The notes below the pieces were generated by a model. The model saw nothing but the letters and a program-made list of their open reading frames with translations. It was not told the origin of the DNA and made no database searches. A DNA stretch of 64,000 nt, from the NCBI GenBank assembly GCA_022495995.1, contig JAFEMH010002338.1, forward strand, positions 277,001 through 341,000, read 5' to 3'. This stretch comes from Adenophora triphylla var. japonica. Taxonomy: Eukaryota > Streptophyta > Magnoliopsida > Asterales > Campanulaceae. Position 1 is the first letter of the stretch. The number at the start of each line of letters is the position of its first letter. A program made the translations under genes and the position numbers. This document shows positions 3,226 through 33,377 of the stretch, piece by piece.

Positions 3226-4708
3226 GCGAGCGCGCATTCACCGATGCAGAAAAAGAAGCCCTGATAAGCCTCCTCCGGGAGTATGTTGACGTGTTCGCCT
3301 GGTCATATCAGGACATGCCAGGACTCGATCCCTCAATCGTGGAGCACAGAATTCCCCTGGATCCCGAATCCAAGCCTGTCAAACGAAGGCTGCGCAAGAT
3401 CAAGCGAGTGGTCCTTGCAAGTTAAAGAAGAAATTGAGAAAATGCTCCGAGTTGGTTTCATCAGAGTGATTGAGTACCCGACTTGGCTCTCCAACATCGT
3501 GACGGTCACCAAGGCCAACGGAAAGGTCGAGATGCTTTGCGTGGATTTCCGGGATCTCAACAAGGCCGACCCTAAAGATGATTTCCCACTTGCCTAACAT
3601 CGACATGCGGTCGACACCACGACAAATTTTGAAGTAAAATCCTTCGTGGACGGGTTCATGGCTACAACCAGATCAAGATGTCCGAGGAGGATCGGGCCAA
3701 GGCTTGCCTTCACCACTCCGTGGGGGACATACTGTTACACGGTCATGCCGTTCGGTCCGAAGAAGCATTTGGGGCTACTTACCGGCGGGCCTGCAACACA
3801 GCCCTCTTCCATGACATGATTCACAAAGAAATCGAAGTATATGTCGACGACATGATCATCCACTCCAAGGGATCGGACATGCGGCACATGACGGATCCGA
3901 GGAAGTTCTTCAACAGACTCGAGAAAACATTCCATGAGGTTGAATCCGGCAAAGTGCACCTTCGGCGTCAAGCGCGGCAAGGTGCTTGGGGTACATGGTT
4001 ACGAGAAAGAGGTATCGAAGCCGATCCAAGGAAAATCAAGGCCATCATCGACATGAAGCCGCCTCAAACCACTGACAGTGAAGAGCTTCATGGGAAGACT
4101 TCAGTACATCAGTCGCTTCATCAACCAGTTGACATCTCTCTGCGAGCCCATGTTCAAACTGATGAAAAAGAATGCTGACATCAAATGGGACTCCGAGTGC
4201 CAAACAGCTTTTGATAAGATCAAGACCTACTTGGTGAATCCCCCAGTGCAGTGCCCGCCACATGAAGACAAGCCACTACTCCGTATTCCGACGATGTACA
4301 CGTCAATCGGAGCAATGCGGCACAAGAACGAAAGATTCCAAGATTGAGCATGCACTCTACTTCGTAGCCGAAAGCTTCAAGGAAGTGAACTCGGCTACTC
4401 GGCATCGGAAAACTTGTACCGCCTTGGTATGGGTAGTCGGGAAAGCTGAAACACTACATGCGGTCGCATTCGGTGCTCTGGTCTCCAAAGTGGACCCCGT
4501 CCGATATCTCTTTGACAAGCCATCTCTGTCGATGCGGCTAGCCAAGTGGTCATTCTTCCTGGCTGAGTTCCACATCAAGTACATAGTCAGAAAATCAACA
4601 AAGGGCAGAGTAATGGCAGATCAGCTTGCCGACTTCCCGAGCAGTGAACCTAAGGGTCCTGATCCGCAATTTCCGGACGACGGAATCTTTTCACTTGACA
4701 GCGCAAAC
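3226..4708 (+). pseudogene. E2 gypsy pol, first part: reverse transcriptase and RNase H, frameshifted
   Basis: Ty3/gypsy pol of Tat type. The connection region reads AFTDAEKEALISLLREYVDV, then comes RT with CVDFRDLNKADPKDDFPL (about 3535-3595) and the catalytic YVDD (about 3840). An RNase H-like segment follows to about 4640 and ends in a VMADQLADFP motif. Reading moves through several frames (breaks near 3420, 3600, 3670 and 4080-4330), so it is a pseudogene. Gag and protease are absent: RT begins directly after truncated LTR-A. The frame is cut at 4708 by the SIRE-1 insertion and resumes at 18866. Nearest alternative lineage would be Athila, but the second RNase H after the break favours Tat. 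Confidence 0.85.
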
Positions 4709-5500
4709 TGTTGGTCCCAAAGGTGGCAACAAAGGTGAAAATACAGCTAGAGGGGGGGTGAATAGCTGTTTAGAAATTTTTCGCCCTCTTTTAAAAACTA
4801 AACCTCTTGCTTACAAAATCCTCTTGCAGTTGATAATAGACTGCAAGTGATAGTGTAAAATGCACAGCGGAATTATAGAGTATAAAGCGGTTTTAGAGGC
4901 GGTTTGTAAAATGCGGTTTTGATATGCGGTTTTGGGAAGTGCAGTTTTACAAACACTTGTGGTTTTGACTTTGTTAACTCCAAACACTATTTCACAATAA
5001 TGGATAACTAAATAAAGATCAAACAGAGACAAAGATAAATAATTAGTAAGCACAAGAAATATAAATGCAGAAAGTAAGAACACGCTATTTGGAGTGGTTC
5101 AATCGATAAACGATCTACGTCCACTACCAAGATGGTTAGTCTTGGATTTCTAAGAGAGATTTTATATTAAGTATTTGAGAGATTACAAAGTACAATAAAA
5201 TCTTTTCTATGAAGAACAAATCCAAAACTATAACCAGTGTATCTCAAGTGTTTAATCTATGTGATTAGAACAAATGAGGTGTGTGTGTGAGGACAAGATC
5301 AAGGCTCTTTAAATCTGTGAGATGTAGCGCTCAATGATTCTTGAATGTGTTAAGGCTTGATTTTTGGGCTGGGGAATATTTCTTGAAGTATGAAGATGAA
5401 GATTCAAAGGGCTAAGAATTTCTGGGCAGAGCTTCAACTTCTGATGAACACAGCAATTTCTCAATTTTTCAAGCTATCTTCAAATGGTGAAGATTAGGGG

Positions 5501-5508
5501 TATTTATA
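5501..5508 (-). promoter_or_regulatory. SIRE-1 LTR TATA box
   Basis: TATAAATA on the minus strand; the matching box in the 5' LTR is at 18159-18166. Nine GCGGTT copies lie 290-496 bp upstream of it in the element's direction. Confidence 0.7.
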
Positions 5509-5797
5509 CCCAAGCATCCAAAATGTAGCCGTTGGACACAGCTGTTGAAGGACAGTACTTGATGCTTTCTTATTGGTCCACAGCAACCACTTTTGTCCTT
5601 TGGTACAGTAGTTGCAGATAAAGCTGATAATGCTCCAGCTGCAAGCAATGAGGTTTGGACACCTGTCACCTTTTCAAGATCCTTGCAGATCTTCTCTGAC
5701 TTTGAATCACGTGACAAGATAAGGTGGTTGACATTGGATATTGCTGATGTGGATTATAATGACAAAAGGTGGTTCACTTCAAGTCTCAATCATTGGA

Positions 5798-5997
5798 GCG
5801 GTTCTGGAGTATAGGCGGTTTGACAAGTGCGGTTGATGACTCCAGTGAGGTTGCATAGTGCGGTTGAAGTTGAACTGCAAGGGTGCGGTTCATCATAAGG
5901 CGGTTGCACTGAAGTAGTTCAAGGGTAGTTTCAAACATAAGATTTCACCAAGCAAGTGCTAAGGGCGGTTTTGCTAGGGCGGTTGGAAGGAGCGGTT
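5798..5997 (-). repeat. GCGGTT array upstream of the LTR promoter
   Basis: Nine copies of GCGGTT (plus strand) within 200 bp, starting at 5798, 5815, 5829, 5860, 5885, 5900, 5965, 5979 and 5992. Spacing is irregular and the flanks differ, so this is not an ordinary tandem repeat. The array is repeated in the 5' LTR (about 18455-18657). Confidence 0.9.
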
Positions 5998-6206
5998 TGA
6001 AACTTCTGAACTGCAACTCTCAATTCCAATGAGTCTTGTGCCAGTCTTCAAGCCTAAAATTAACCTAATCTATAAAATGGACTTAGCAAAAAAATGAAGT
6101 CTAAGCTTCATTACATAGGGTCCTAAAGTCCTTAAAGTAGACAGGAGGTTATGGTATCAATCAAATCTAATACAAAATAGGAGGGTTAAAACATGCATAC
6201 CCAACA

Positions 6207-6220
6207 ATCTCCCCCTATTT
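6207..6220 (-). other. SIRE-1 polypurine tract
   Basis: The minus strand reads AAATAGGGGGAGAT immediately before the 3' LTR, the expected site for plus-strand DNA priming. Confidence 0.8.
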
Positions 6221-6722
6221 GATTGATGCCATTACCTACTATAACTAAAGCAAACATTGTACTTGGTAAAAACATGTCCATAAGAATTAACATGGTAATT
6301 CATGTCCCAAGTCAATGCACACACTTAGCTTAAGCTATAGATTTCTATACTTTCTAAGAGATAAAAACTTACAATATGGAAAGTAGAGAAATGCATTCAG
6401 TGCACTTAAGAAATATGAGTTTGAGTTCAAAGTGCTGTTTAAACTGAATGTTTAAACTTCAATTCAAAAAAATATGATTTTAAGTTGAAAAATATTTGAA
6501 TGAGGTTTAAAACCATAAGAGGTTTCATTGTTCTACAAACAAGCAGTTTGATATGAACAAGGTTTTTGGAACCATGATGCAATTTCCATTAATTCCTCAA
6601 GTGATTACAAAACAGGAATGAAAGAAAATTACAGGGTCACCAAAAAAAATGTTGGACAAAAAATACAATGAGAGTGCGGTCCAACACACAAAAGAGTTTA
6701 CAAAAAAAAGAGCAAAAGCGGT

Positions 6723-7655
6723 TTAAGGTTGATGCGGTTCTTGACCTTGCTGCTGCTGCTGCGGTTGGTTGATCTCAGGGTTCCTTGCAAGATTTGATGC
6801 AGAGGTTTCAGATTTCAGAGATTTTCTAATTCTTCTCACCTCATCTGCGGTCCTTCCTTGAGCGGTCACCAATCTCTCTAAGATATTTGCTTGAGAATCA
6901 ATCTTGAGATTGGCATCAGAGACTGCCTTGGAGTTATCAGATACTTGATCAGTTAGCTCATCAATCAAGGTGTGAAAGGAGGAGTTCAAGGAATTGTACA
7001 AAGTTTGAACCTCCCCCTGAACTGCTGCGGTCTGAGAAGAGATAGCTTCAGTCATTGTATCAAGATTCACAGTCACTTGGATGGAGGATTTCAGCTCATT
7101 GACTGTGGCTTCAAGTTTGGTGGTGAATCCTAACTTGATATTTTCAAGGCGGTCATTGAATTCATCCTTGACTTCATTCAACTTGGCCATCAAGGCATCA
7201 TCAAGGGAGTTTGTTTTGATCTCCAGCTTCTCTTTGACATTATCAATTTCCAGGAGGATATTTGCTTCAACCGCATTCAAGGCGGTTTGAAAGTCTTGAG
7301 AAGTAGGCGGTTGGGAATTGACAGTTTTAAGGAATTCAGCTTGGAGGGAATCAAAGGCGGTTTTGGAGGAGGTTGCAAGCTGGGAAATCATTTCCTTGAG
7401 ATCAGAATCTCCAAATGATTGAATTTGAATGACACCTTCAGATAACTCTTTCTTGAATCCTTCAAAGCAAGAATCAGCTGAGGATTTGACAATGTTTGCT
7501 AAGTCCTTCTCCCCCTTAATGGCATCAAGCCTCTGAGCAAAACTCTTGAGGGAGTTCCTATGGTCAGCCATTTGAAGGGTTTGAGAGGCAATCGAGATGG
7601 GATTGAGATTCGGCAAGCTTACGAAGGGAGCGGTTTGAAGCTTCAAGGGAGGCAT
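6723..7655 (-). CDS. SIRE-1 extra ORF, segment C: coiled-coil tail
   Basis: About 290 residues, from ADHRNSLKSFAQRLDAIKG to a Gln-rich end. It is rich in Leu, Lys, Glu, Ser and Asp with heptad-like spacing (for example LEIKTNSLDDALMAKLNEV), which suggests a long coiled coil for oligomerisation. There is no signal peptide and no membrane span. It overlaps segment B in another frame, so one frameshift separates them; in an intact copy both would belong to one protein. SIRE elements are known to have an env-like ORF here with Pro-rich and coiled-coil parts. Several in-frame AACCGC motifs are present. Function is unknown. Confidence 0.7.
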   Translation of the reverse strand: MPPLKLQTAPFVSLPNLNPISIASQTLQMADHRNSLKSFAQRLDAIKGEKDLANIVKSSADSCFEGFKKELSEGVIQIQSFGDSDLKEMISQLATSSKTAFDSLQAEFLKTVNSQPPTSQDFQTALNAVEANILLEIDNVKEKLEIKTNSLDDALMAKLNEVKDEFNDRLENIKLGFTTKLEATVNELKSSIQVTVNLDTMTEAISSQTAAVQGEVQTLYNSLNSSFHTLIDELTDQVSDNSKAVSDANLKIDSQANILERLVTAQGRTADEVRRIRKSLKSETSASNLARNPEINQPQQQQQGQEPHQP

Positions 7656-8811
7656 TAGAAGCGGTCAGCTTGATAATGTGGCCTTGGTTTATGAGTAGTT
7701 GGGACTGAATAAGATTAAGGGTGGAAAGGATTTGGGAGTAGTCAGAGGGTGGAGGAGCGGTTGAGGATGAGGGAATAAAGGTGAAGGAAGGAGGCGGTTC
7801 AGAATAAGTAGGAGGAGCTGTTTGAGGTATTTGAGACAATAGGGTTTTGAAAATGTGTGAGGCAGGAACTGTATAAGGGGATGAGGTTTGAGTTGAGATG
7901 GGTAAAGTTGATGGTAAGGTAGATAGGGCGGTAGGAATGGGTGCGGTTGGAAGTGGGGTAGTTGGAATAGAGGTAGTTGGAATTGGCGCGGTTGAGGTTG
8001 GGGTGGTTGGGATTGGCGCGGTTGGGATTGGGGTGGTTGGGATTGGCGCGGTTGAGGTTGGGGTGGTTGGGATTGACATAGAAGTAGTAGGAGGATTTGA
8101 GGTGATTGGGTTGGAATGAATTGAATGGGATTTTTGTGGGGAAGAGATAGGTGATTTGGAAGGGGATTTATGGGTGCGGTTTGATATATGAGGGGATGAA
8201 TGGTGTGAGGGTGAATTTTGTGGTGAAGGAGTTGGGGTTCTAAGTCTAGAGGTTGAATGGGCTGGGCCTGCTGATGGCTTGGATGTCCATGCAGTGAAGG
8301 CTTTGGGATTTGTGGTGGCTTGATTTTGAGGGGTTTGAAATTCAGAAGGGGATGATGAATTTGAATTGGAATGAGAGGATGATTTATCAAAGTATGAGGA
8401 GGTTTCACCAGGTATTTTGATGTTGGATTTGGCAATGGTGTGAAGATAGTGTTTCTTTGGAGGAGTTGTTTTCTTGGCCTTTTGTTTGAATCTCCTCTTC
8501 TTGGGATTCTCCCCCTGAGTGGTTGCAATCTTGGGAGGTGGAGAAGGAGAGAGCGGTTCGGGAGAAAGAGATTTGGAAGGAGAAAGGTGTTGGGTAGGAA
8601 TTGGGGAAGAGGTTTGAATAGGTGAGGTTGGAGGAGTTTGAAGCGGTTGGGAGTGAGGAGGAGGTTGCGGTTGGGGTTGCGGTTGAACAGGAGGTTGAAC
8701 TTGAGCTTGCGGTTGAGAAGTAGCAAGCGGTTCAGAAGATGGTTTCTTTCCCTTGGCAGCCTTCCTCTGCCCTTCTTTCCAACTTGTCAATTTTTGCTTT
8801 ATAAAAAGCAA
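7564..8811 (-). CDS. SIRE-1 extra ORF, segment B: Pro/Gln/Thr/Ser-rich middle with basic cluster
   Basis: About 400 residues of low-complexity sequence. It opens with PQ repeats (VQPPVQPQPQPQPPPHSQ), then has a basic nuclear-localisation-like cluster PKKRRFKQKAKK, a Ser/His/Pro-rich stretch, and short Pro-Thr-Ile tandem repeats (IPTTPIPTAPIPTT; DNA 7900-8100). The tail (LIQSQLLINQGHIIKLTASN) passes toward the coiled coil. It probably continues segment A after a one-base frameshift in the 8732-8811 overlap. Composition suggests an unstructured linker in a nuclear protein more than a secreted envelope. Many AACCGC hexamers are embedded in it. Confidence 0.7.
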   Translation of the reverse strand: MLFIKQKLTSWKEGQRKAAKGKKPSSEPLATSQPQAQVQPPVQPQPQPQPPPHSQPLQTPPTSPIQTSSPIPTQHLSPSKSLSPEPLSPSPPPKIATTQGENPKKRRFKQKAKKTTPPKKHYLHTIAKSNIKIPGETSSYFDKSSSHSNSNSSSPSEFQTPQNQATTNPKAFTAWTSKPSAGPAHSTSRLRTPTPSPQNSPSHHSSPHISNRTHKSPSKSPISSPQKSHSIHSNPITSNPPTTSMSIPTTPTSTAPIPTTPIPTAPIPTTPTSTAPIPTTSIPTTPLPTAPIPTALSTLPSTLPISTQTSSPYTVPASHIFKTLLSQIPQTAPPTYSEPPPSFTFIPSSSTAPPPSDYSQILSTLNLIQSQLLINQGHIIKLTASNASLEASNRSLRKLAESQSHLDCLSNPSNG

Positions 8812-9922
8812 CCTTATCTTCCTCTGTGAGATTGGCAGTAACAGTCTTCACAGTTTTTGCCTTCTTGATAAGAGGGGCAATTCCAGCATCCTCTTCTTCT
8901 TCCTCATCAGTAGGCTCATCTCTCAAAGCAAATTTCTCCTGAGGCTTAGCACTTGGACTAGCACCTGCGGTTTGAGCACGTGGTTGAGATGGTGCGGTCC
9001 TTGGCTTCTTGGTCTGCGGTCCTAGGACAATGTTTTTCTTTCTAGAGGCCTTCTTGATTGCCTTTCCTAGACCAGTAACCGCGGTTGCTGGAGACATTTC
9101 AACATAGATCTCCTTGGGGTTGAGAGTATCAGCATCATATAGAAATTTGTATTGGGTATCTCCAAATGAGTATCTGAAGTTGTGACAAACCCTGGTTCCA
9201 AGGGAATCACCTTCACCCATTGGTACTGATAACTCAGAAGTTGAGAGTCTGAGATCCTCCAAGTGTTGATAGCTTGTGAACAACGCGGTTAGGAGCCTGC
9301 AGAATGGTCTCCATCTCTGGTGTTCATTTTTTATTTTGGATTGATAAGCATCAATGGAGCTAGCCAGTTCCTTCATCAGAATCTTGGGCCAATTCAACTT
9401 AATTCCATTATAAATGGCACAGCAGTAAGTCCATTGCTGTGTAGTGAAGTTGTTGTGGTTGCCAATTTTCCCACATACAGACAACCCTACTAAATAGCCC
9501 AAGTGGCTCATTAGCTCACCAAATTCCCTCCTTGCCTTCTTCTTGTAATAACCAGATAGAGAGGTCAGATTGACAGTTGACTGAGCGGTTGCATCCAATA
9601 CTTCCTGATCAACCTCCATGGGGCATCCTGACACATGAAATCCATAAGTACTTCTAATATCCAGATGATCAATGGATATATCGAAGCCTTCAACACTGCC
9701 AACCAGGCATTTGATCTTGGTGCCATCTGATAATTCTCTGTCTCCTAGAACAGCAGAGGAGTAGAATTGATCCACAAAGGAAGGAATGATATAAGATTGG
9801 CCTTTGTTGAAGAGAGGGAGGATTCCAGAGGTAGTGAGTCTTCTGATCATCTCTCTACCAAGAGCATCTCCTTGGAGCTCAGGCTCATTGATCTCATAGC
9901 CTGGAATAAAGAATTTAGGATC
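8732..9922 (-). CDS. SIRE-1 extra ORF, exon 2 start and folded N-terminal domain (segment A)
   Basis: Exon 2 begins at 9922 after the acceptor TTTTGTAG and is in frame with the 10-codon first exon. The first ~270 residues look globular (GILPLFNKGQSYIIPSFVDQ, then YGFHVSGCPM, then GKIGNHNNFTTQQWTYCCAI). They are followed by a Lys-rich cluster (LGKAIKKASRKKNI), a second one near KKPRTAP, an acidic run (DEPTDEEEEEDAG) and IKKAKTVKTV. The domain resembles the putative plant transposon proteins found as extra ORFs in plant retroelements, judged from memory. No membrane segment is seen. A frameshift near 8770 ends this frame. Own promoter and intron suggest separate expression from gag-pol. Confidence 0.7.
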   Translation of the reverse strand, partial: DPKFFIPGYEINEPELQGDALGREMIRRLTTSGILPLFNKGQSYIIPSFVDQFYSSAVLGDRELSDGTKIKCLVGSVEGFDISIDHLDIRSTYGFHVSGCPMEVDQEVLDATAQSTVNLTSLSGYYKKKARREFGELMSHLGYLVGLSVCGKIGNHNNFTTQQWTYCCAIYNGIKLNWPKILMKELASSIDAYQSKIKNEHQRWRPFCRLLTALFTSYQHLEDLRLSTSELSVPMGEGDSLGTRVCHNFRYSFGDTQYKFLYDADTLNPKEIYVEMSPATAVTGLGKAIKKASRKKNIVLGPQTKKPRTAPSQPRAQTAGASPSAKPQEKFALRDEPTDEEEEEDAGIAPLIKKAKTVKTVTANLTEEDKVAFYKAKIDKLERRAEEGCQGKETIF

Positions 9923-10956
9923 CTACAAAATGAAACAAAGGGTTTAGATCCAAAAAGTGATTCACAATGCACAAGCGGTTTGGGCATCCATGCGGTTGGT
10001 AATTGATGCGGTTGAAAATATTGAGAACTCCAAACCTCAAGTAAATTGTGAATATAATTAAAACACTTAGAAAATATGTAAGAGATTATACTAGTACGTG
10101 GCATTGTAATCCAAGTTTATCCCACACTGCAAGCGGTGCTTGGAGAGGAAGGTTATGGTGTCCAGCCTATATACTAAGTAACATCTCAAACAAACTTAGC
10201 ATGAAGTTTCAAAATAACATCATAAATAGGTAATAGGCATGCGGTTTCAAACTAACAAGCGGTTCATAGTTTGCATGCGGTTCAAAAGTGAATGCGGTTA
10301 ATATATAGCATGCGGTTCTAATGTGAACGCGGTTTGAAGAGAACATGCGGTTGGAATCAAGGAGTATTCATGAATGTAGTTCCAAACAATCAAGGCATGC
10401 GGTTGATGTTCATAATCAGTGCATAAAAATTTATTGAAAAATTTTCTAAGTACAAAAACATGTGTGAAAATCAAATGAACCAAAACATGTGATAATTTTA
10501 ACATGGCATATGAACAGTCATGTTGAAGGCATGATGAACACGAAGAACACTTAGAACACTGAAAACAGAGATTCAACAAAAGTTCACCAAAATCAACAAA
10601 TAACATGTCAAAATGATCACATTGAGCAGTAGATTAACAATATAACCTTAAAAATTCATACTTTACTCAGAATCAACATGAACAAGCAAGAACACTCAAA
10701 TGGGTTTTCGAATGAGAAAATTTTAAATTCTAAAATCAGTGTTCAAATCATTGGTTGATCGTAAAATAAATTACATATAAAGAATCTAACAACAAATCCG
10801 AGCAAAACCCAACTGAAATTATGCAAAATGATGAACAATCAAGGTAGATATGAACAAAAATGCATTTAAGGGTTTTCGAAGCTTCAAGGTTCATCAATGG
10901 CGGATTCATGAGGAATTTTGCAGAAATGAAGAAAGATGTAGTTAAGGAACACATAC
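9923..10956 (-). other. Intron of the SIRE-1 extra ORF (sense strand)
   Basis: Donor GTATGT at 10956-10951, after exon codons ending GATATG. Acceptor TTTTGTAG directly before 9922. Both flanking exons are in phase 0 and the intervening 1,034 bp has stops in all sense frames. It contains eleven GCGGTT copies (9973-10402). Called from splice consensus and frame only. Confidence 0.65.
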
Positions 10957-10986
10957 CATATCAGAGAAGGGAGCCTTGGGAGCCAT
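10957..10986 (-). CDS. SIRE-1 extra ORF, exon 1 (10 codons)
   Basis: ATG at 10986-10984 opens ten codons (MAPKAPFSDM) that end at a GTATGT donor. It lies 115 bp downstream of a minus-strand TATA box at 11101-11108 and joins exon 2 in phase. I chose this start because it is the first ATG after the TATA box and because no ATG-initiated frame exists at the exon 2 acceptor itself. Short coding first exons are common in plant genes. Confidence 0.6.
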
Positions 10987-11100
10987 TGAATAAAGTTTTA
11001 AAAAAATTATGAAGCTTTTGAAGGAGAGAGAGTGAGTTGGTAGAAAGTGATTTTGCAGAGAAGACAGAGTAGGAAGAGTTGAAATCGTTGTCTTGTCTGC

Positions 11101-11108
11101 TATTTATA
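11101..11108 (-). promoter_or_regulatory. Internal TATA box for the SIRE-1 extra ORF
   Basis: TATAAATA on the minus strand, in context CCTATAAATAGC, identical in core to the LTR TATA box and 115 bp upstream of the exon 1 ATG. An array of eight GCGGTT copies lies 258-456 bp upstream, the same arrangement as at the LTR promoter. Confidence 0.6.
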
Positions 11109-11365
11109 GGTAAAATTCAGGTTTAGGGCAGTTGAAAGGACAGTTTGATTTTCCCATAAACTGAATCATTACCTCTATTGCACCCTTTCATCTCCTATTC
11201 TTTAACCAATGACGGCTGACAAGAGAGCTTTAAATGCTAATGTTCCCTTTGCATTAAATGCATTTAAATTTTGAAATAGCGTGGGAAAACATTTGCAAAA
11301 ATGCCCTTATGTCAAAATGGACTAAAATAAAAATAAAGGAACTTACCTTGGGTCCACGTGGCAGT

Positions 11366-11557
11366 GCGGTTGAAGACAATTTTTAAACTGCATATCTTCT
11401 TTAAAAAATTAAAACTGATTTTGAAAATACCATATGTTGAAGGCGGTTGAAGATGGAGCGGTCATCAGCAGCATGCGGTTGGAAATAAGCGGTTGGCTGC
11501 AGAGGCGGTTGACCACTCATGCGGTTTGAATGAATGCGGTTCAACAAATGTGCGGTT
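11366..11557 (-). repeat. GCGGTT array upstream of the internal promoter
   Basis: Eight copies of GCGGTT starting at 11366, 11443, 11475, 11489, 11505, 11521, 11536 and 11552, plus one GCGGTC near 11458. It sits between the end of pol and the internal TATA box. Confidence 0.9.
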
Positions 11558-11622
11558 GAAATTTTTTAATAAGAAATACAACCTAAACTCAACACACAAG
11601 TTAGTCAATAAAAAGTATGGAA

Positions 11623-12024
11623 TCATTTAAGTTCAAGCATACCCATTTCTCCTCTGAGGAAGGAAAACCTCTTGGAGTCAAGAGCTTTGGTGAGGATGTC
11701 AGCAATCTGATTATCTGTCCCCACATACTCTAAATGGATATTCCTCTTCTCTACATGGTCTTTGAGGAAATGATACTTGATATCAATATGCTTGGTCTTG
11801 GAATGCATGACAGGGTTGTTGGAGATTGAAATTGTTGAAGTATTGTCACACATGATAGGGCAATTCCCTTCATGGATTCCATAGTCTACCAACTGCTGCT
11901 TCATCCAAAGGATTTGACAGCAACAACTACCAGCAGCAATATACTCAGCCTCTGTGGTTGACACTGAAAGCTGAAGCTTGCTTCTTGCGGCCCAAGCAAC
12001 TAGTCTATTCCCAGGAAATGACAA
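11623..12024 (-). pseudogene. SIRE-1 RNase H, C-terminal part
   Basis: Copia RNase H end of pol. It shows SVSTTEAEYIAAGSCCCQIL with the catalytic Glu of the TEAEY motif, then IMCDNTSTISISNNPVMHSK, HIDIKYHFLKDHV and the usual closing QIADILTKAL. The stretch 12025-12319, which should link it to RT, has lost its frame: remnants such as GYSDADYANF can be seen, but frameshifts and stops break it. It ends pol; the internal promoter of the extra ORF follows about 500 bp downstream. Confidence 0.85.
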
Positions 12025-12319
12025 GTACCACTAGTGCTTTTCTGTCAATAGTGCGAAATTTGCATAATCTGCATCTGAATAACCTACAAGATCGAAGTTC
12101 GAATCTTTGGAATACCAAAGTCCAAGGTTAGTGGTTCCCGGATAAATAGTGGATTATACGCTTGGCGCAATAAGATGTGCTTCTCTAGGATGCGCAGTAG
12201 CGAGCACATACACGAGACACTAAACATGATATCGGGCCTACTAGCGGATTAAGTAAAGTAATGAGCCGATCATACCTCGATATAAAGTCGATCAACTTTC
12301 TTACCTTTGAGATCCCTAT

Positions 12320-13957
12320 CTAGCTTATATTGGTGGCCATAGGAGTATCATATGCTTTAGCATTTTCTAATCCAAACTTCTTTATCAACTCCTTGGTGTA
12401 TTTGGCTTGGCTGAGGAAAATACCTTCTTCGCATTGCTTGATTTGAAGTCCGAGGAAGAATGTTAATTCTCCCATCATGCTCATCTCAAACTTGCTTTTC
12501 ATTAGCTTCTCGAAACGCTTACAAAGCAACTCATTAGTAGAACCAAAAATAATATCATCGACATAAATTTGAACAAGTAAAGTATGCTCATTATATTTGG
12601 CAATAAAAAGAGTTGTATCAATTTTACCGCGTTTAAATACCTTTTCTAGTAAAAATTTAGAAAGAGTCTCATACCATGCCCTTGGAGCTTGCTTAAGTCC
12701 ATACAAAGCTTTTTGGAGTTTGTAGACATGATTGGGAAATTTGGAGTCTTCAAATCCAGGTGGTTGGGCAACATACACGGTCTCTTGCAGTTCGCCGTTG
12801 AGGAATGCACTCTTTACGTCCATTTGATATAACTTGAAATGCTTGAAAGAGGCGTAGGCTAAGAAGATTCTGATAGCTTCCAATCTTGCAACTGGAGCAA
12901 AGGTTTCATCATAATCAATTCCTTCTTCTTGCCTATATCCTTGTGCAACCAACCTTGCTTTATTCCTAGTAATGCTTCCATTCTCATCCATCTTATTCCT
13001 AAATACCCACTTAGTTCCTATCACTCCTTGATCCTGAGGTCTAGGCACCAAAGTCCAGACCTTGCATCTTTCAAACTGGTTGAGTTCTTTTTTCATAGCA
13101 ACGACCCAATTGGAATCTTGGAGTGCTTCATCAATCTTCTTGGGTTCAACTTGAGATAAAAGTGAAGTATGCTCGTCATAGTTCGATCTCCTTGTTTGAA
13201 CACCGGAAAACAGGTCACCAATCACATTTGTGAGGGGGTGACTGCTGACTTCACGAACCTCTGGGGGTAAGTCTGGTTGAACTGAGGTTTGCTGAAGATT
13301 TTCAATTGGAACGTCGTTAGATCCTTCAGCGAAGTCATGGAAGGTAAGTTGATGAAGAGGTTCTACAAGCTGGATAGGGGAATTTTCAACTTCTTCTTCC
13401 CTGGGAGTTGCATCTGGAGAAAGTATTTCAGGTGCGGTTTGAAAGGTGCGGTTTGAGGGAAGGTCAGTTGAGGGTGCTGGATTTTGCGGTTGAGGTTCAG
13501 GTGCGGTTTGAGATGGTTCACCTGGTTCATTATGCTCAACAAAATCATCAGCAACATTTGGAGCCAAATGTGGCTCAAGGAGAGAATGCTCATCAAAAGT
13601 AACATGGACAGACTCAACTATTTTTACACTAGTTTTATTGAAAACACGAAAAGCTTTAGAATGTTTAGCATACCCAACAAAAATACCTTCGTTGGCTTTA
13701 GCTCCGAATTTACCTCTATTTTCTCTTCCATTGTAGAGGACAAAACATTTGCAGCCAAAGATCTTGAAGAATGCAATGTTGGGGGTTCTTCCTCGCCAAA
13801 GCTCATAGGGAGTCTTGTTGTAGGTTTTGTTGATGAGGGATCGGTTACGAGTGAAGCATGCGGTATTGATTGCTTCGGCCCAAAATATGCGAGGTAGCTT
13901 CGCTTCGGATATCATAGTCTTTCCGGCCTCAATCAACGTCCTATTCTTCCTTTTCAC
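12320..13957 (-). CDS. SIRE-1 integrase end and reverse transcriptase
   Basis: 545 open codons, part of the gag-pol polyprotein and not a separate gene. Residues 1-~90 are the integrase C-terminal part ([36 protein letters not shown] context). A variable acidic/Pro-rich linker follows, with four AACCGC motifs (13434-13506). RT runs from about residue 280: [54 protein letters not shown] and the catalytic [10 protein letters not shown]. It reads well apart from the frame break to the integrase core at 13957 and the lost frame after 12320. RT looks intact, so this domain could still have been active recently. Confidence 0.92.
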
Positions 13958-14901
13958 AACCCCATTTTGTTGTGGAACACCAGTGATTGAAAAATTGTGA
14001 TCAATCCCATGGTCATCACAATGTCTTGAGCAACACCGTTGTTCTTAAATTCTGTTCCATTATCTGATCGAACACTAACGATGTCGTCTTCTTTTTGAGT
14101 TTGGAGCCGTCTAAAAAGTGCGGTGAGAATCTCATAGCAATCATCTTTGGAGATCATCATCTCAACCCACGTATATCTTGAGTAATCATCCACCACCACT
14201 AAAGTATATCTATTTCCTCCAATGCTGGCAGTGGTTACGGGTCCAAACAAATCTATGTGAAGCAGTTGTAAGCATCTTGAAGTTGATGGAGCGGTCTTGC
14301 TGGTGAAAGATGACGCGGACTGCTTACCAAGCTGGCATGCACTGCATTTCTCTGGATGGTGGTCAGCCACTTTGGGTAAACCACGAACGAGGTTTTCCTT
14401 ACCAATCTTTGCAAGATACTTGAAGTTCAAATGGCTCAACCTCTTGTGCCATAGCCAACTATTTTCGCTCACATTCTTAGCTACAAAACAGAGATAAGTA
14501 ATACTACATGCAGAATTTAGATCAATAATGTAAATATTACTCTTACGAATCCCTGTGAGTAGGGTGACGCCGGAAATGCTATCTTTGATAAAGCAATTTG
14601 ATGACGTGAAGTTGCAAAGCATTCCTTTGTCGCAAAATTGAGAAATTGAAAGGAGGTTGTGCTTGAGTCCTTCAACAAGAGAAACCTTCTCAATGGTTAG
14701 GTTTCCTCTTCTTATAACACCATATCCAATGGTCTTGCCTTTATTGTTGTCACCAAAGGTTACAGACGGACCACTTGCTTCAACGACATCTTCAAGTAAT
14801 GATCTATCTCCAGTCATATGTCTTGAGCAGCCACTGTCAAGATACCATTCATTATCCTTGGAGTGACCAGCCATGAAGCAGAGGACCTGAAATGTAAACA
14901 T
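13954..14901 (-). CDS. SIRE-1 protease and integrase core
   Basis: 315 codons. The aspartic protease site [13 protein letters not shown] is near residue 20. The gag-pre-integrase HHCC zinc finger has [11 protein letters not shown] and [10 protein letters not shown]. The integrase core begins [10 protein letters not shown] (first Asp) and has VRSDNGTEF (second Asp). The frame is lost at the end. In the downstream frame the position of the third catalytic residue reads GVVKRKNRT, where copia integrases have Glu, so the DDE triad is DDK here. With the frameshift this makes the integrase of this copy non-functional. Confidence 0.9.
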
Positions 14902-14939
14902 TAAGAACGAGGTCCCCCTTTATTCCTTGGGTCCTGAAG

Positions 14940-15308
14940 TTAGCAACCCTTCACGACCCACACCTGTTTGACAGAAGGAGGTTTACTCTTCCTGGCATTG
15001 GATGTGAACCGCAAAAGGCATTCTGCAGCCTTGTGACCTAAACCATCACACACAGAACATTTATGATAGCTACAAGCTTCATGTGGTTTTACTAACTCCT
15101 TACTCTTCTTAGGAGTTGCATGCGGTTTGGGACAAGGAAGCGGTTTTGGAGGAGCAGTTCCAGCTAAGAGTCCGGCTGAGATAAAGGGAACAGGTTTTGG
15201 TTTGACCATGTATTTCCTGGGAACGCTATTCACCTTTTGAAGGCAGGAGGAGCGGTCGAAGAAGAGACGCGGTCGAGACCTAGAGTTAGCGAGAACTACC
15301 TTTTCCAC
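14940..15308 (-). CDS. SIRE-1 second zinc-knuckle segment between gag and protease
   Basis: 122 codons. A basic, Pro-rich N-terminal part (KPLPCPKPHATPKKS) is followed by CSVCDGLGHKAAEC, a CX2CX4HX4C knuckle. Part of the gag-pol polyprotein, separated from neighbours by frame breaks. SIRE-type elements have an extended gag, and this matches that region. Role inferred: RNA binding. Confidence 0.7.
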   Translation of the reverse strand: MEKVVLANSRSRPRLFFDRSSCLQKVNSVPRKYMVKPKPVPFISAGLLAGTAPPKPLPCPKPHATPKKSKELVKPHEACSYHKCSVCDGLGHKAAECLLRFTSNARKSKPPSVKQVWVVKGC

Positions 15309-15380
15309 CGGGAAGCGGTTGGAGCGAGTATTTTACCAATTCCATAAGCCATTTCCTATTCGGGTGCTTCCACAGAATTC

Positions 15381-16109
15381 TTAGGTTTTAACACGAGAAT
15401 TCTTCCCATATTGCTTTCCTTTAGTGTAGACATAATTAATTTGTCGTCCTTTACCCTTTCCTTTAGCATGCTTCTCCTTGGGAATTTCTTTAGTTAGTTC
15501 TGGAAATTCCTCATCCTTTTCACTCGAGGATGCACACTTCTCCTCTTCCTCAGATCCAAATCCTAGACCATCCTTAGTTCCAGGAGGAACTTGGAAGTCA
15601 ATGATTTTATCCTTGGTGGATTGAGACTTGAGCCACGAATCAATAATCTTTTGGCGATCGTCGATTTGGGTTACCAAGTCATCATTCCTGAGTTGAAGTG
15701 CAGCAACCTTAGTTTCAAGGATGCGGTTTTGATCAGCAAGAGGAGTCATCTGTTTGATTTGGTCCTTAAGATTAGAAATTTCAGACCTCATCACAGTTTT
15801 CTCCATCTTGTACAGATTAAGTTCATCATGAGCTAAGCTTAAGGCTTTCTTAAGATTTGAGAACTGATGGATCACCATTTCTGCTTCCTTAAACATCCTT
15901 TCATGTTCTATGGGAGAAACCTCTTCCACCACCTTTTTCAAAATTTCCTTTTTTTGAATAGTTTTTGAAGGTGGAGCATTTGTAGGAGGAAAAATGGGAC
16001 GTGAATACGAGCAATTTCCTATCTTAATGCTAGGAGTAAGTTTGATATCATCATCCAATTTAAAATTTGGAAGTTTTGTAGAAACCTCCTTTTCTTCCAT
16101 ATCTTGCAA
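15381..16109 (-). CDS. SIRE-1 gag C-terminal coiled-coil segment
   Basis: 242 codons. Heptad-rich stretch from about residue 60 to 165 (ALSLAHDELNLYKMEKTVM, NRILETKVAALQLRNDDLV), then an acidic run (GSEEEEKCASSSEKDEE) and a basic tail (KEKHAKGKGKGRQ). It overlaps the zinc-knuckle gag frame by about 90 bases in another frame, so one frameshift lies near 16100. It lies between the two zinc knuckles. Probably a particle-assembly or oligomerisation part of gag. Confidence 0.7.
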   Translation of the reverse strand: MQDMEEKEVSTKLPNFKLDDDIKLTPSIKIGNCSYSRPIFPPTNAPPSKTIQKKEILKKVVEEVSPIEHERMFKEAEMVIHQFSNLKKALSLAHDELNLYKMEKTVMRSEISNLKDQIKQMTPLADQNRILETKVAALQLRNDDLVTQIDDRQKIIDSWLKSQSTKDKIIDFQVPPGTKDGLGFGSEEEEKCASSSEKDEEFPELTKEIPKEKHAKGKGKGRQINYVYTKGKQYGKNSRVKT

Positions 16110-16951
16110 CTCGTGACTCGAATCGATTCATCGGAAGCATCTGCAACTAAGCGAGAGATTAACCTCTTCGGTTTCATCATCACTTCCATCATCGAATCTG
16201 TTTCAATCCAAGTTGCTAATTCCTTGGAATTCTCTTCCTCCTCGGCAACCATTCCCTTGCGACGAGAAAATTTCGCGGGAGAGGTTTTCTTTTTCATGTA
16301 TTCATATTTAGTTTGTGGACACTCGGATGCAAAGTGACCGGGTTTTCTACAATTGTAGCAAACTAGATCACTCTTTTTCTTTGTATCTCCATCCTTAGAA
16401 AACGTTGCAGGAGGTTTGCCTTTTGAAAATGATTTTGTGAAAGGTTTTGAGGATTTTCTAAATTTTTGGAATCTTTTCACATACATGGCAAAATCATCAT
16501 CATCCATCTCGATGAGTGATGAGGTTGATATGGAAGGATCAGCGGTTTGGTTGGATGTAGATGGTTTCTCCTCTTGTTCCACAACGGACATGGAAAGCGA
16601 TTTGGTTTTTCCTTCAATTTCTTCAATATGATTTAATTTTAATTCATAGACTCTAAGATTGGCGTACAAGTTACTTAACGACCAAGTACTCAAAACTTTG
16701 GAGTCTTCTAAAGAGGTAGCCTTATTTACCCATTTAGAACCTAAAGCAGATAGGAAAGTCATATTGATTTCCTTATCGGTTAAAATTTTGCCTAGAGATC
16801 TACAAGCATTAACTACCTCAACATATCGGTCGTAGGTTTGACGCAAGGTTTCGTTGGATTTTCTGTTGAAGTTGTTGTATGATCTTTCAACAAAGATATA
16901 ATTTGGTTTCCTTGCATTCATCATCACCTTCGAGGTAGCTCTCAATGGCAT
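16019..16951 (-). CDS. SIRE-1 gag, capsid C-terminal part and first zinc knuckle
   Basis: 310 codons with copia gag (UBN2-type) features: NETLRQTYDRYVEVVNACRS, MTFLSALGSKW and LSNLYANLRVYELKL. The zinc knuckle CYNCRKPGHFASEC (CX2CX4HX4C) lies near residue 195. The last ~35 residues are out of the natural frame. Forms the particle and binds the RNA genome. The upstream gag frame is 16987-17310. Confidence 0.88.
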   Translation of the reverse strand: MPLRATSKVMMNARKPNYIFVERSYNNFNRKSNETLRQTYDRYVEVVNACRSLGKILTDKEINMTFLSALGSKWVNKATSLEDSKVLSTWSLSNLYANLRVYELKLNHIEEIEGKTKSLSMSVVEQEEKPSTSNQTADPSISTSSLIEMDDDDFAMYVKRFQKFRKSSKPFTKSFSKGKPPATFSKDGDTKKKSDLVCYNCRKPGHFASECPQTKYEYMKKKTSPAKFSRRKGMVAEEEENSKELATWIETDSMMEVMMKPKRLISRLVADASDESIRVTSCKIWKKRRFLQNFQILNWMMISNLLLALR

Positions 16952-16986
16952 CCCACATACGCTTTTCGGTTTTGAGGTACATCACT

Positions 16987-17310
16987 TTACGTAGAGTTGA
17001 TACGGGAGGGTTCCGAAATGATGTGCCTAGCCTTCTTTGTCAAGGCAACCAATCTCTTCTCTTCATTCGACCACTCTTCTTTTGGCTTTTTGACCTCTGG
17101 AATTGTTGCACTGGTGGTTGCATCTGTGTTGGCCTTCATTGGAACTAACGGGCCATTGATCACGCACTCCACCAGCATTTCATCTATGGTTTCCAAGTGA
17201 ATGAGCATTCGGCACTTCCAGATGTCAAAGTGGTCTTCGTCCAAGATTGGAATGTGTGAATAGTTAACAGTAGTCATTGTCTTTGTATTTGCCATATCGA
17301 ATCGGCACAC
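16987..17310 (-). CDS. SIRE-1 gag N-terminal part
   Basis: 107 codons. The start could be MCRFDMANTK or, more likely, the MANTKTMTTV ATG five codons in. HIPILDEDHFDIWKCRMLIH is the typical copia gag opening (Phe/Tyr-x-x-Trp). It lies about 42 bases downstream of the primer site. A frameshift near 16985 separates it from the rest of gag. Confidence 0.85.
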   Translation of the reverse strand: MCRFDMANTKTMTTVNYSHIPILDEDHFDIWKCRMLIHLETIDEMLVECVINGPLVPMKANTDATTSATIPEVKKPKEEWSNEEKRLVALTKKARHIISEPSRINST

Positions 17311-17351
17311 AAGCTGTTAAGCTTGAAAAACAGTGGTTTTAAAATGTGATA

Positions 17352-17363
17352 GCTCTGATACCA
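17352..17363 (-). other. SIRE-1 primer binding site (initiator Met tRNA)
   Basis: The minus strand reads TGGTATCAGAGC two bases inside the 5' LTR, the standard plant copia primer site complementary to the 3' end of initiator tRNA-Met. Confidence 0.92.
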
Positions 17364-17365
17364 CT

Positions 17366-18865
17366 TTTTGGTCCCAAAGGTGGCAACAAGGGTGAAAATA
17401 CAGCTAGAGGGGGGGGTGAATAGCTGTTTAAAAATTTTTCGCCCTCTTTTAAAAACTAAACCTCTTGCTTACAAAATCCTCTTGCAGTTGATAATAGACT
17501 GCAAGTGATAGTGTAAAATGCACAGCGGAATTATAGAGTATAAAGCGGTTTTAGAGGCGGTTTGTAAAATGCGGTTTTGATATGCGGTTTTGGGAAGTGC
17601 AGTTTTACAAACACTTGTGGTTTTGACTTTGTTAACTCCAAACACTATTTCACAATAATGGATAACTAAATAAAGATCAAACAGAGACAAAGATAAATAA
17701 TTAGTAAGAACAAGAAATATAAATGCAGAAAGTAAGAACACGCTATTTGGAGTGGTTCAATCGATAAACGATCTACGTCCACTACCAAGATGGTTAGTCT
17801 TGGATTTCTAAGAGAGATTTTATATTAAGTATTTGAGAGATTACAAAGTACAATAAAATCTTTTCTATGAAGAACAAATCCAAAACTATAACCAGTGTAT
17901 CTCAAGTGTTTAATCTATGTGATTAGAACAAATGAGGTGTGTGTGTGAGGACAAGATCAAGGCTTTTTAAATCTGTTAGATGTAGAGCTTAATGATTCTT
18001 GAATGTGTTAAGGCTTGATTTCTGGGCTGGGGAATATTTCTTGAAGTATGAAGATGAAGATTCAAAGGGCTAAGAATTTATGGGCAGAGCTTCAACTTCT
18101 GATGAACACAGCAATTTCTCAATTTTTCAAGCTATCTTCAAATGGTGAAGATTAGGGGTATTTATACCCAAGCATCCAAAATGTAGCCGTTGGACACAGC
18201 TGTTGAAGGACAGTACTTGATGCTTTCTTATTGGTCCACATCAACCACTTTTGTCCTTTGGTACAGTAGTTGCAGATAAAGCTGATAATGCTCCAGCTGC
18301 AAGCAATGAGGTTTGGACACCTGTCACCTTTTCAAGATCCTTGCAGATCTTCTCTGACTTTGAATCACGTGACAAGATAAGGTGGTTGACATTGGATATT
18401 GCTGATGTGGATTATAATGACAAAAGGTGGTTCACTTCAAGTCTCAATCATTGGAGCGGTTCTGGAGTATAGGCGGTTTGACAAGTGCGGTTAATGACTC
18501 CAGTGAGGTTGCATAGTGCGGTTGAAGTTGAACTGCAAGGGTGCGGTTCATCATAAGGCGGTTGCACTGAAGTAGTTCAAGGGTAGTTTCAAGCATAAGA
18601 TTTCACCAAGCAAAAAGCTAAGGGCGGTTTTGCTAGGGCGGTTGGAAGGAGCGGTTTGAAACTTCTGAACTGCAACTCTCAATTCCAATGAGTCTTGTGC
18701 CAGTCTTCAAGCCTAAAATTAACCTAATCTATAAAATGGACTTAGCAAAAAAATGAAGTCTAAGCTTCATTACATAGGGTCCTAAAGTCCTTAAAGTAGA
18801 CAGAAGGTTATGGTATCAATCAAATCTAATGCAAAATAGGAGGGTTAAAACATGCAAACCCAACA
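17366..18865 (-). repeat. SIRE-1 5' LTR
   Basis: About 99% identical to 4709-6206. The inner end reads TTTTTGG on the plus strand where the partner has TGTTGG, so the terminal CA of this LTR (minus strand) is lost. TATA at 18159-18166, thirteen GCGGTT copies. Confidence 0.93.
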
Positions 18866-19300
18866 CAAACCGCTGGCAACTCTTCTTCGATGGGGCAGCC
18901 AACAAGAAGGGGAATGGCATTGGAATGCTCCTTGTCGATCCCAAGGACGAGCATACTCCCATAGCCATCAAGATGAATTTCGAAGCAACCAACAATGCGG
19001 CAGAATATGAAGCACTGCGCGAGTTTGGAAGCCGCCCTCGAGCGCAACATCTTAGAGTGGATGTATATGGAGACTCGGCATTGATCATCAATCAAGTATC
19101 CAACAAATGGAAGACGGTAGATTCTCGCCTTCGAAGTACCACGCGTACATGGAGGAGCTCATTGCTCGGTTCAAGGACATCTCTTTTCACTATTTGCCAA
19201 GAGACGGGAACCGCCGCGGGCATGCAGCAACCCTCGCCTCTCTTGTCGAAATTCCCGATGGGAAAGCGGTAAAACCCCTCGAGAATAGGCGGACGGGAAA
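18866..19300 (+). pseudogene. E2 pol, second part: archaeal-type RNase H
   Basis: Directly after the SIRE-1 target duplication the gypsy frame resumes with NRWQLFFDGAANKKGNGIG, then NFEATNNAAEYEAL and a motif of the VYGDSALIINQVSNKWK type (three acidic positions D, E, D visible). This is the second RNase H that marks Tat-lineage gypsy pol. A one-base frame change occurs near 19110. A linker with EKEETIDEPWYN-like character follows before integrase. Confidence 0.85.
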
Positions 19301-25937: not shown

Positions 25938-26230
25938 CTTACTGCACCAGGAAAAGATTCCTTCCATTTTGGTCCCTCAACTTTTGGCAATTCCAATTTT
26001 ACCACTTTTGGCCCCCAAAAGTGTAAAATTTCCCCCAGTTAGACATTTCTAACACCCCATCCCCCGAGGATAAATCAAAGTTAGTGTTCACTAACGCTCG
26101 TCTCCTGACGTTAAATTCAGTCGAGTTGACATTTGACATTCCAACGTTCAACCATGTCTCCGGACATTCCAAGTTACTATTCCGTCTCCTGATGTTAAAA
26201 TTTAATAATGGTTTTCACCATTAAATCCTG

Positions 26231-27077
26231 AATCGCGACCTTTCACGGTCCGATTTCAATTCTCAATCGCGACCTTTCACGGTCTGATTTCAAGTCTCAA
26301 TCGCGACCTTTCACGGTCCGATTCCAAGTCTCAATCGCGACCTTTCACGGTCCGATTTCAATCCTCAATCGCGACCTTTCACGGTCCGATTTCAAGTCTC
26401 AATCGCGACCTTTCACGGTCCGATTTCAATCCTCAATCGCGACCTTTCACAGTCCGATTTCAAGTCTCAATCGCGACCTTTCACGGTCCGATTTCAATCC
26501 TCAATCGCGACCTTTCACGGTCCGATTTCAATCCTCAATCGCGACCTTTCACGGTCCGATTCCAATTCTCAATCACGACCTTTCACGGTCCAATTTCAAT
26601 CCTCAATCGCGACCTTTCACGGTCCGATTCCAATCCTCAATCGCGACCTTTCACGGTCCGATTTCAAGTCTCAATCGCGACCTTTCACGGCCCGATTTCA
26701 AGTCTCAATCGCAACCTTTCACGGCCCGATTTCAATTCTCAATCGCGACCTTTCACGGTCCGATTTCAAGTCTCAATCGCGACCTTTCACGGCCCGATTT
26801 CAATTCTCAATCGCGACCTTTCACGGTCCGATTTCAATCCTCAATCGCGACCTTTCACGGTCCGATTCCAAGTCTCAATCGCGACCTTTCACGGTCCGAT
26901 TCCAAGTCTCAATCGCGACCTTTCACGGTCCGATTTCAATCCTCAATAGCGACCTTTCACGGTCCGATTTCAAGTCTCAATCGCGACCTTTCACGGTCCG
27001 ATTTCAAGTCTCAATCGCGACCTTTCACGGTCCGATTTCAATCCTCAATCGTGACCTTTCACGGTCCGATCTCAAAC
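26231..27077. repeat. 34-bp tandem array, about 25 copies
   Basis: The unit AATCGCGACCTTTCACGGTC plus CGATTTCAAGTCTC repeats head to tail with few changes (TTTCAAGTCT, TTTCAATCCT and TTCCAATTCT variants). Degenerate units continue to about 27106. It lies between the antisense gene and the 3' LTR of E2. Such arrays are known in the 3' UTR of Retand-like Tat elements. Confidence 0.95.
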
Positions 27078-27129
27078 AGTCAATCCCGACCTTCGCGGTC
27101 CGACCTCCACTCTCCTATCAAGACCCTCG

Positions 27130-29942: not shown

Positions 29943-30230
29943 CCAAGTCAAACTAAACACATTAAACCGGAATGGAGGGAGTACTTAACGAAAATAATAA
30001 AACATTACTAACGAGCCTAACAATTTTTTAACAAAACTACTTCCTTCTACATTAAACAAACAAGGAAGTTCATAAACCACATTTATAACACATATCAACA
30101 TTAACATATAGCAACAACCACAACCTAGGTTTAATCAAAAATACACAAAAAATAATAGAAGACTTACCTGAAATTGAGATGAATCGCCAAAAATGTACGA
30201 AGGTTTTGTCGAAGGAAAGCGCCGGAGAAG
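29943..30230 (-). mobile_element. CACTA-like element, inner part left of the Ale insertion
   Basis: AT-rich sequence that continues at 33581 once the Ale element is taken out. On the minus strand, CAATTTCAG is followed by the splice donor GTAAGTC at 30167, so an untranslated or short first exon of the CACTA-like element or of a host gene may end here. No coding frame is seen. Its left side is cut by LTR-B. Confidence 0.35.
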
Positions 30231-30428
30231 TATTAGCAGAGATTTATGTGTTTAGGATTCAGTGTATGTATTTTATTGTTGTCTGTTGATGATCAATTTC
30301 AGTAGTAGAATTCAATGTATTTGTAGAGAGAAAGTTGTATATATAGCCTCCTTTGAGGTGCTGAAAATATCAAGAAAAATTTCTTCTCATTCGTGTGTCT
30401 TTTCTTGTTTCACTTAATACATCTAACA
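30231..30428 (+). repeat. Ale 5' LTR
   Basis: 198 bp with minus-free ends TATTAGCAG and ATCTAACA. TATATATAG near 30340 is the likely TATA box. The primer site TGGTATCAG follows at once. Confidence 0.92.
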
Positions 30429-30464
30429 TGGTATCAGCCTTTTAATCGGTCCTTTCAGCAGCAC

Positions 30465-30866: not shown

Positions 30867-30877
30867 ATAGACTTCCC

Positions 30878-32065: not shown

Positions 32066-32122
32066 CTGGATTATGACGAGACATTTAGTCCAATAGTTAA
32101 ACCATCTACCATTCGCACTGTT

Positions 32123-33370: not shown

Positions 33371-33377
33371 GGGGGGG

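Follow-up and report, generated by a model that had tools for sequence, protein, structure and literature searches.

We find that a retrotransposon of Adenophora triphylla var. japonica carries nine-site clusters of one short, directional motif before both the TATA box of its long terminal repeat (LTR) and the probable internal TATA box of its extra open reading frame (ORF), an arrangement that is new here. The element lies on the minus strand at positions 4709-18865 of the window, by which we mean the whole stretch of 64,000 nucleotides that was analysed (contig JAFEMH010002338.1, positions 277,001 to 341,000). Since the element is on the minus strand, its transcript carries AACCGC as the sense motif, and the plus strand reads GCGGTT. 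We suggest, with a probability of roughly 0.6, that a sequence-specific DNA-binding protein recognizes RACCGC on the sense strand as its half-site and that the arrays of this site serve the LTR promoter and an internal promoter. A protein of this kind would bind the half-sites on DNA, and the arrays would then activate, or hold open, the LTR promoter that expresses gag-pol as well as the internal promoter of the envelope-like extra ORF. A host factor seems slightly more likely as the reader than one encoded by the element. We favor this explanation because of the strand bias of the motif, its 12-18 bp spacing, the two nine-site clusters before identical TATA octamers, the CpGs that fall in the motif and the synonymous excess in several coding pieces.

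The clusters and the features that they appear to serve are as follows.

18159..18166, minus strand: LTR TATA box, TATAAATA
18456..18656, minus strand: nine-site cluster preceding the TATA box of the LTR, from -490 to -295; all 9 CpGs of 18456-18660 are in the motif
17545..17589, minus strand: four-site cluster from +577 to +616 relative to the TATA box of the LTR, in the presumed transcribed leader
13434..13508, minus strand: four sites in the integrase-reverse transcriptase linker of pol
11366..11557, minus strand: nine-site cluster before the extra ORF (eight GCGGTT, one GCGGTC), from -449 to -263 relative to the internal octamer; all 9 CpGs of 11366-11560 are in the motif
11101..11108, minus strand: internal TATA-like octamer, TATAAATA, its sole sense-strand copy outside the LTRs
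10957..10986, minus strand: predicted first coding exon of the extra ORF, beginning with ATG, 30 nt
9923..10956, minus strand: predicted intron, GTATGT ... TTGTAG, with 11 sites inside

Three sense-strand copies of the octamer TATAAATA are thus present in the element: one per LTR, at matching positions, and a third in the 1.7-kb linker (9923-11622) that separates pol from the extra ORF. Downstream of the linker copy, an ATG at 10986 opens ten codons that are followed by GTATGT at 10956, and TTGTAG ends at 9923, with the open frame 9922-8732 starting immediately after it in compatible phase. The linker sites downstream of the internal octamer fall into a group of eight at +704 to +862 and a group of three at +1095 to +1128. 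The extra ORF may therefore be driven by a promoter of its own and contain a 1034-bp intron with eleven sites. An internal promoter for the envelope-like gene of Sireviruses has been supported, without being conclusively identified, in the account of Bousios et al. (2010, PMC2829016).

An earlier reading, made from the sequence alone, had counted by eye 13 copies of GCGGTT in each LTR and about 50 in the interior, nearly all in the same orientation, and these counts proved essentially exact. The plus strand of 4709-18865 holds 78 GCGGTT and only three AACCGC (7269, 9077, 15007), with 13 of the former in each LTR, 43 between 6718 and 11552 and nine in gag-pol. That reading had placed some 43 copies outside gag-pol, which is right; 23 of the 43 sit in the extra ORF rather than in non-coding DNA. 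It had also called for a count against shuffled controls, and in this element 300 dinucleotide-preserving shuffles per region, with expectations of 0.1-0.5, leave an excess in every region: 13 against 0.16 and 13 against 0.13 in the LTRs, 23 against 0.27 in the envelope-like ORF, 19 against 0.20 in the linker and 9 against 0.53 in gag-pol, where no shuffle gave more than 4. One more copy, at 6718, spans the end of the extra ORF and is counted apart from the 23. By such shuffles no excess is seen in the flanks, where other copia elements lie (1 against 0.65 expected on the left, 5 against 8.2 in the 45 kb on the right). By a Markov estimate GCGGTT scores 56 (78 against 1.4), compared with 6.5-14.2 for the top hexamers of seven other 14,157-bp stretches taken from 18866-63022.

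Among the sense-strand variants, GACCGC is enriched as well (12 against 0.8) whereas TACCGC (2 against 0.5) and CACCGC (2 against 0.9) are rare, so that the site is best written RACCGC, with 90 copies, or 77 when one LTR is counted. The forms expected from CpG deamination are also in excess (GTGGTT, 21 against 4.9; GCAGTT, 9 against 4.7). The commonest heptamer of the element is TGCGGTT, with 37 copies. This presumably equals the core site of the animal Runt factors; we know of no Runt factors in plants, and the match is probably a coincidence.

The sites are spaced more regularly than the sequence-only reading had supposed. It was correct that the flanks differ from copy to copy and that tandem duplication is insufficient to explain them; the irregular spacing that it reported did not hold, as neighboring sites are often 12-18 bp apart. 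With one LTR counted, none of the 76 gaps is under 12 bp, 31 are of 12-18 bp and four of 19-25 bp. In the 11 runs of at least three sites, 28 of 38 gaps are of 12-18 bp against 7.0 by random placement, a value reached in none of 5000 trials, where the contrast at short gaps is somewhat overstated because the placements permitted gaps below 6, which are impossible for RACCGC. Five arrays called by Tandem Repeats Finder (TRF) hold 20 of the 77 sites, and when they are removed 15 of 20 gaps in runs are still of 12-18 bp against 3.8 at random (0 of 5000 trials). The excess likewise survives correction for internal duplications: after one LTR is dropped and each TRF array is cut to a single unit, the sense strand keeps 52 AACCGC against three GCGGTT (the expectation of 7.9 printed for this count is too high, since pieces of 40 nt or less stayed unshuffled). 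Flanks of 27 adjacent site pairs are 40% alike, those of 2005 distant pairs 32%, and none of the adjacent pairs reaches 80%. The same pattern would result if the sites had been duplicated long ago and selection had since acted only on the site.

The motif also accounts for much of the CpG content. GCGGTY accounts for 33 of the 34 CpGs of five clusters. By region, its share of the CpGs is 13/22 and 13/21 for the two LTRs, 20/33 for the linker, 30/43 for the extra ORF and 12/139 for gag-pol. The observed/expected ratio is 0.88-2.82 in the five clusters (with a GC content of only 0.42-0.54 and spans of 41-205 bp) and 0.28 and 0.36 in two site-free stretches. CpG decays fast when methylated. Elsewhere in the LTRs and linker CpG is depleted, as expected of methylated transposon DNA, which suggests that the CpGs of the motif are recent, selected or protected.

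Sites in coding sequence were compared with a synonymous expectation, in which the amino-acid sequence was fixed and codons were redealt within each ORF piece in 1000 shuffles. AACCGC exceeds this expectation in the middle of the extra ORF (14 against 3.0, reached in 0 of 1000 shuffles), in the piece holding the integrase-reverse transcriptase linker (4 against 0.90, 0 of 1000, maximum 3), in the N-terminal part of the extra ORF (4 against 1.1, P 0.005), in the gag tail (3 against 0.6, P 0.009) and in the gag middle (1 against 0.02, P 0.019). As the coding sites fall in all three frames, a signal in the nucleic acid is favored over one peptide.

Several observations weigh against a bound half-site that serves two promoters. 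All site statistics come from one element copy. The synonymous test covers ten slightly overlapping pieces with P values uncorrected for multiple testing; the C-terminal part of the extra ORF exceeds its expectation weakly (6 against 2.5, P 0.013), a gag piece shows no excess (1 against 0.6, P 0.56) and three of the ten pieces hold no AACCGC at all. GAGGTT is in excess too (27 against 5.6), which is explained neither by deamination nor by a bound reader. The closest relative seen, a record that we call L007 (67% in the reverse transcriptase), has neither GCGGTT nor AACCGC in 3 kb, and the site is thus not universal. Moreover, base composition leads us to expect about one extra TATAAATA per 14 kb (our own estimate), and the shorter TATAAA is also found at 17824, 8803 and 5166, so that the internal octamer taken alone is weak evidence and proves nothing. 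It gains weight because of the matching nine-site cluster and the ATG and splice features downstream.

By its structure, 4709-18865 is one LTR retrotransposon of the SIRE-lineage (Sirevirus-like) Ty1/copia group, a placement made from its layout and from a reverse transcriptase signature that we take to be that of the lineage, rather than from a tree. The layout comprises the copia domain order with RVT_2, a 5-bp target-site duplication, a primer-binding site which we take to be of the initiator tRNA-Met type, and a sense-oriented extra ORF after pol.

4704..4708, no strand: target-site duplication CAAAC, copy 1, flanking the 3' LTR
4709..6206, minus strand: 3' LTR, from TGTTGG to CCAACA in the sense direction; 13 GCGGTT; 98.7% identity with the 5' LTR
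6208..6216, minus strand: polypurine tract AGGGGGAGA, adjoining the 3' LTR
6723..7664, minus strand: C-terminal part of the extra ORF, read in a third frame; resembles a coiled coil by eye, with a sub-threshold Apolipoprotein match
7564..8847, minus strand: extra ORF, proline-rich middle in another frame; 14 AACCGC
8732..9922, minus strand: N-terminal part of the extra ORF (396 aa), weakly matching PF20167 (Transposase_32) over most of the profile
11623..17316, minus strand: gag-pol, with zinc knuckle, GAG-pre-integrase, integrase and RVT_2 (Pfam); 9 GCGGTT
17352..17363, minus strand: primer-binding site TGGTATCAGAGC
17366..18865 (aligned part 17368-18865), minus strand: 5' LTR; 13 GCGGTT at the same 13 places as in the 3' LTR
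18866..18870, no strand: target-site duplication CAAAC, copy 2, flanking the 5' LTR

The domains of gag-pol follow the copia order, and its reading frame is split across several frames in this copy. The LTRs, which both start with TGTTGG in the sense direction, differ in 19 of about 1500 columns and all 13 sites are identical in both; as only about one difference would be expected inside the motifs, this identity is uninformative. Rfam gave no match at gathering thresholds anywhere in the 64-kb window.

The sequence-only reading had named the VANDAL transposons of Arabidopsis as the best known parallel. We find a closer precedent within the same clade, namely the repeated-motif (RM) boxes of Sireviruses, which lie in the LTRs and before the envelope-like gene, and the array looks like a one-sided, one-orientation variant of these boxes and not like the RM box proper. 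As described by Bousios et al. (2010, PMC2829016), RM boxes are high-copy palindromes, with a CGG-CCG core in 12 of 13 elements and 8-32 copies per element, located in the upper LTR before the TATA box and in the linker before the envelope-like gene. Their clusters define CpG islands; ours combine the CpG ratios given above with a low GC content and short spans. Linker boxes are given there for all nine elements with an envelope-like gene and for none of the four without, which nonetheless have LTR boxes; SIRE1-1 does not figure among the 13 box-bearing elements (PMC2829016). The element described here shares with them the lineage, a high-copy CGG-containing box in CpG-rich clusters, the core CGGT/ACCG common to several boxes, an LTR cluster that begins about 200 bp into the LTR and before the TATA box, and further copies in the linker. 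In detail, nine of the 13 LTR sites are at 210-410 of 1498 with the TATA box at 700 (the other four at 1277-1321), and 20 GCGGTY lie in 9923-11622; after the ORF there are a GCGGTC at 6676 and the GCGGTT at 6718. The half-site GACCG reported for Osr10, Osr8 and Vitis matches RACCG, whereas TACCGCT of Inga differs at the first base (PMC2829016).

The differences are equally clear. The known boxes are palindromes located in LTR and linker, while ours is a directional half-site in 90 copies (77 with one LTR), a number above the published range, and also occupies the leader part of the LTR, the linker within pol and the extra ORF. In place of palindromes with a CGG-CCG core we see the 78 to 3 strand bias and a single palindrome, AACCGCGGTT at 9077-9086, which arises by overlap. 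For this reason we prefer the name RM-like half-site array. Folding z-scores of five stretches overlapping clusters were -0.94, -2.84, 0.58, -2.08 and 1.07, against -2.18 for a site-free LTR stretch, and the leader cluster had no predicted structure (0 kcal/mol); as there is no consistent excess of structure in the clusters, hairpins seem unneeded here. The element may in this respect be seen as a natural experiment in which the palindrome is reduced to a directional half-site, arguing against hairpins as the essential function. In the titles and abstracts surveyed, no half-site RM box or GCGGTT hexamer was described in a Sirevirus.

Sireviruses are abundant plant retrotransposons, and in the 2010 account the factor binding RM boxes could not be named and the internal promoter was left unsettled (PMC2829016); no later answer to either question appeared in the literature surveyed, in which subscription papers were missing. 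An array of RACCGC spaced 12-18 bp apart provides a precise probe for such a factor, and the predicted intron and promoter, which mirrors that of the LTR, would give a concrete model for the expression of the envelope-like ORF.

The extra ORF (9922-6723, minus strand) is spread over three overlapping frames in this copy. Its N-terminal piece matches the plant transposon domain PF20167 with an E-value of 0.012 and 15.9 bits, where the cut-off of the family is 45, and contains four basic runs. By the Kyte-Doolittle scale the three pieces reach a 19-residue maximum of 0.92, with no transmembrane-like segment, where a segment across a break between the unjoined frames would escape. DUF1985 and DUF287, the domains of VANC, gave no match for ten pieces, including the three of the extra ORF, at E 0.01, nor for four pieces, two of them from the extra ORF, at E 10. 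With the N-terminal piece, none of 5349 candidates in a protein database was homologous at E 1e-3, a search of PDB sequences returned one chance match (E 0.67), and a structure prediction (pLDDT 36) was unusable and discarded. Viral contigs searched with this piece and with the integrase-reverse transcriptase piece yielded no relative. An extra ORF of this type (eORF-3'F) is present in 74% of SIRE elements, and the extra ORFs of the lineage form 19 groups that resemble one another little or not at all, which the authors read as fast evolution or repeated acquisition (PMC6317226).

Who reads the site can be asked separately from whether it is bound: the two alternatives considered next are special cases of a DNA-bound reader, and their probabilities and that of the bound half-site are not mutually exclusive. 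The sequence-only reading had proposed a mechanism akin to that of VANC, in which the element's own extra ORF would encode a reader of RACCGC that removes silencing from element copies. Like VANDAL21, the target of VANC21, our element combines a short, densely repeated motif of uniform orientation, some of it in tandem repeats, with an ORF beyond those for transposition (Hosaka et al., 2017, PMC5735166; Sasaki et al., 2023, PMC10398659), and the dense, same-orientation arrays are the part of the proposal that stands. The restriction of linker boxes to the nine of 13 RM-box elements with an envelope-like gene, the 19 unlike extra-ORF groups, as a reader co-evolving with its site might show, and the absence of a transmembrane-like segment together with the four basic runs and weak PF20167 match would also agree with it. 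The rest fares less well. LTR boxes are present in the four elements lacking the gene, which indicates that a reader encoded by the extra ORF is not generally required; neither the DUF1985/DUF287 searches nor the 5349 candidates offer a sequence link to VANC, and the structure model is no help; the ORF of this copy is spread over three frames; and according to MASiVEdb the envelope-like genes of the Sirevirus group have transmembrane and coiled-coil domains. VANDAL21 is furthermore a DNA transposon whose 9-bp motif is mainly non-coding, in contrast to the many coding sites here, and binding and demethylation have been shown for VANC21 whereas our case is made from sequence (PMC5735166, PMC10398659). 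With the closer RM-box precedent in addition, we consider a self-encoded reader fairly unlikely. Its fullest version, which we regard as unlikely, would make the envelope-like ORF a DNA-binding regulator belonging to the element itself rather than an envelope. It would be expressed from an internal gene with an intron and a RACCGC promoter array, and its product would bind LTRs and body and keep chromatin open, as a copia counterpart of VANC, with the palindromic RM boxes of other Sireviruses as sites of dimeric versions. If the reader were indeed encoded by the element, a second kind of transposon anti-silencing would become testable. Alternatively, the element could have multiplied a host R2R3-MYB site of the WEREWOLF (WER) type for expression in particular cells. 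In its crystal structure WER is bound to 5'-AACCGC-3', which occurs in the GL2 promoter, and the dissociation constant is 51 nM (Wang et al., 2019, PMC7145699), and the same hexamer is bound directionally and in a manner sensitive to 5-methylcytosine, which at the AAC cytosine cuts binding more than 45-fold (PMC7145699). WER is, however, strict at AAC and tolerant at positions 4-6 (AACNDN; PMC7145699), and the pattern in the element is opposite, with ACCGC invariant and GACCGC enriched, while AACTGC (9 against 4.7), AACAGC (7 against 4.1) and AACGGC (3 against 0.9) are much less so. The enriched variants thus differ from those of a WER-like site, and we think this origin quite improbable.

Two further explanations dispense with a protein on DNA. 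AACCGC could be a signal in the genomic RNA that is recognized either by Gag, for packaging, or by a different RNA-binding protein; the sense-strand bias, the spread along the transcript including the leader, and the unstructured leader cluster would suit this, but the nine-site LTR cluster lies upstream of the TATA box and is therefore absent from the RNA 5' end, the internal cluster is at a similar distance from the internal TATA, and the retention of CpG points to DNA, so that we judge an RNA signal very unlikely. Least probable of all, in our view, is a neutral by-product of slippage and tandem duplication of a short unit whose flanks have decayed. The TRF arrays do hold 20 of the 77 sites, and VANDAL targets too grew by tandem repetition (PMC5735166). 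Against this, the excess and the spacing persist with the arrays removed, adjacent flanks are little alike, the sites in pol are above synonymous expectation, and a site with a fast-decaying CpG holds most of the CpGs of the LTRs, linker and extra ORF.

A degenerate reverse transcriptase pattern matched one viral and six bacterial records, and tblastn found a copia reverse transcriptase in three of the seven, L004 (46%), L006 (44%) and L007 (67%). These are two Labilibacter sediminis contigs and one Eubacterium metagenome-assembled genome, and the copia pieces in them are probably eukaryotic contamination; their counts of GCGGTT/AACCGC are 0/0, 0/1 and 0/0, respectively. Elsewhere in the window, a second copia element occupies 44058-50343, with LTRs at 44058-44923 and 49481-50343 that are 98.7% identical and a reverse transcriptase at 46212-47045 (minus strand); it has no GCGGTT and one AACCGC. 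Another copia element, at 30230-33575, has its reverse transcriptase at 31838-32650 (plus strand) and is bounded by 199-bp repeats, at 30230 and 33377, that are 98% alike. A tandem array of a 34-bp unit, with about 26 copies and 92% matches, is found at 26224-27103, and the palindrome ACCGGT is dense at 50647-53584, which holds 11 of the 22 copies in the window, three of them as AACCGGTT (50716, 52210, 53493).

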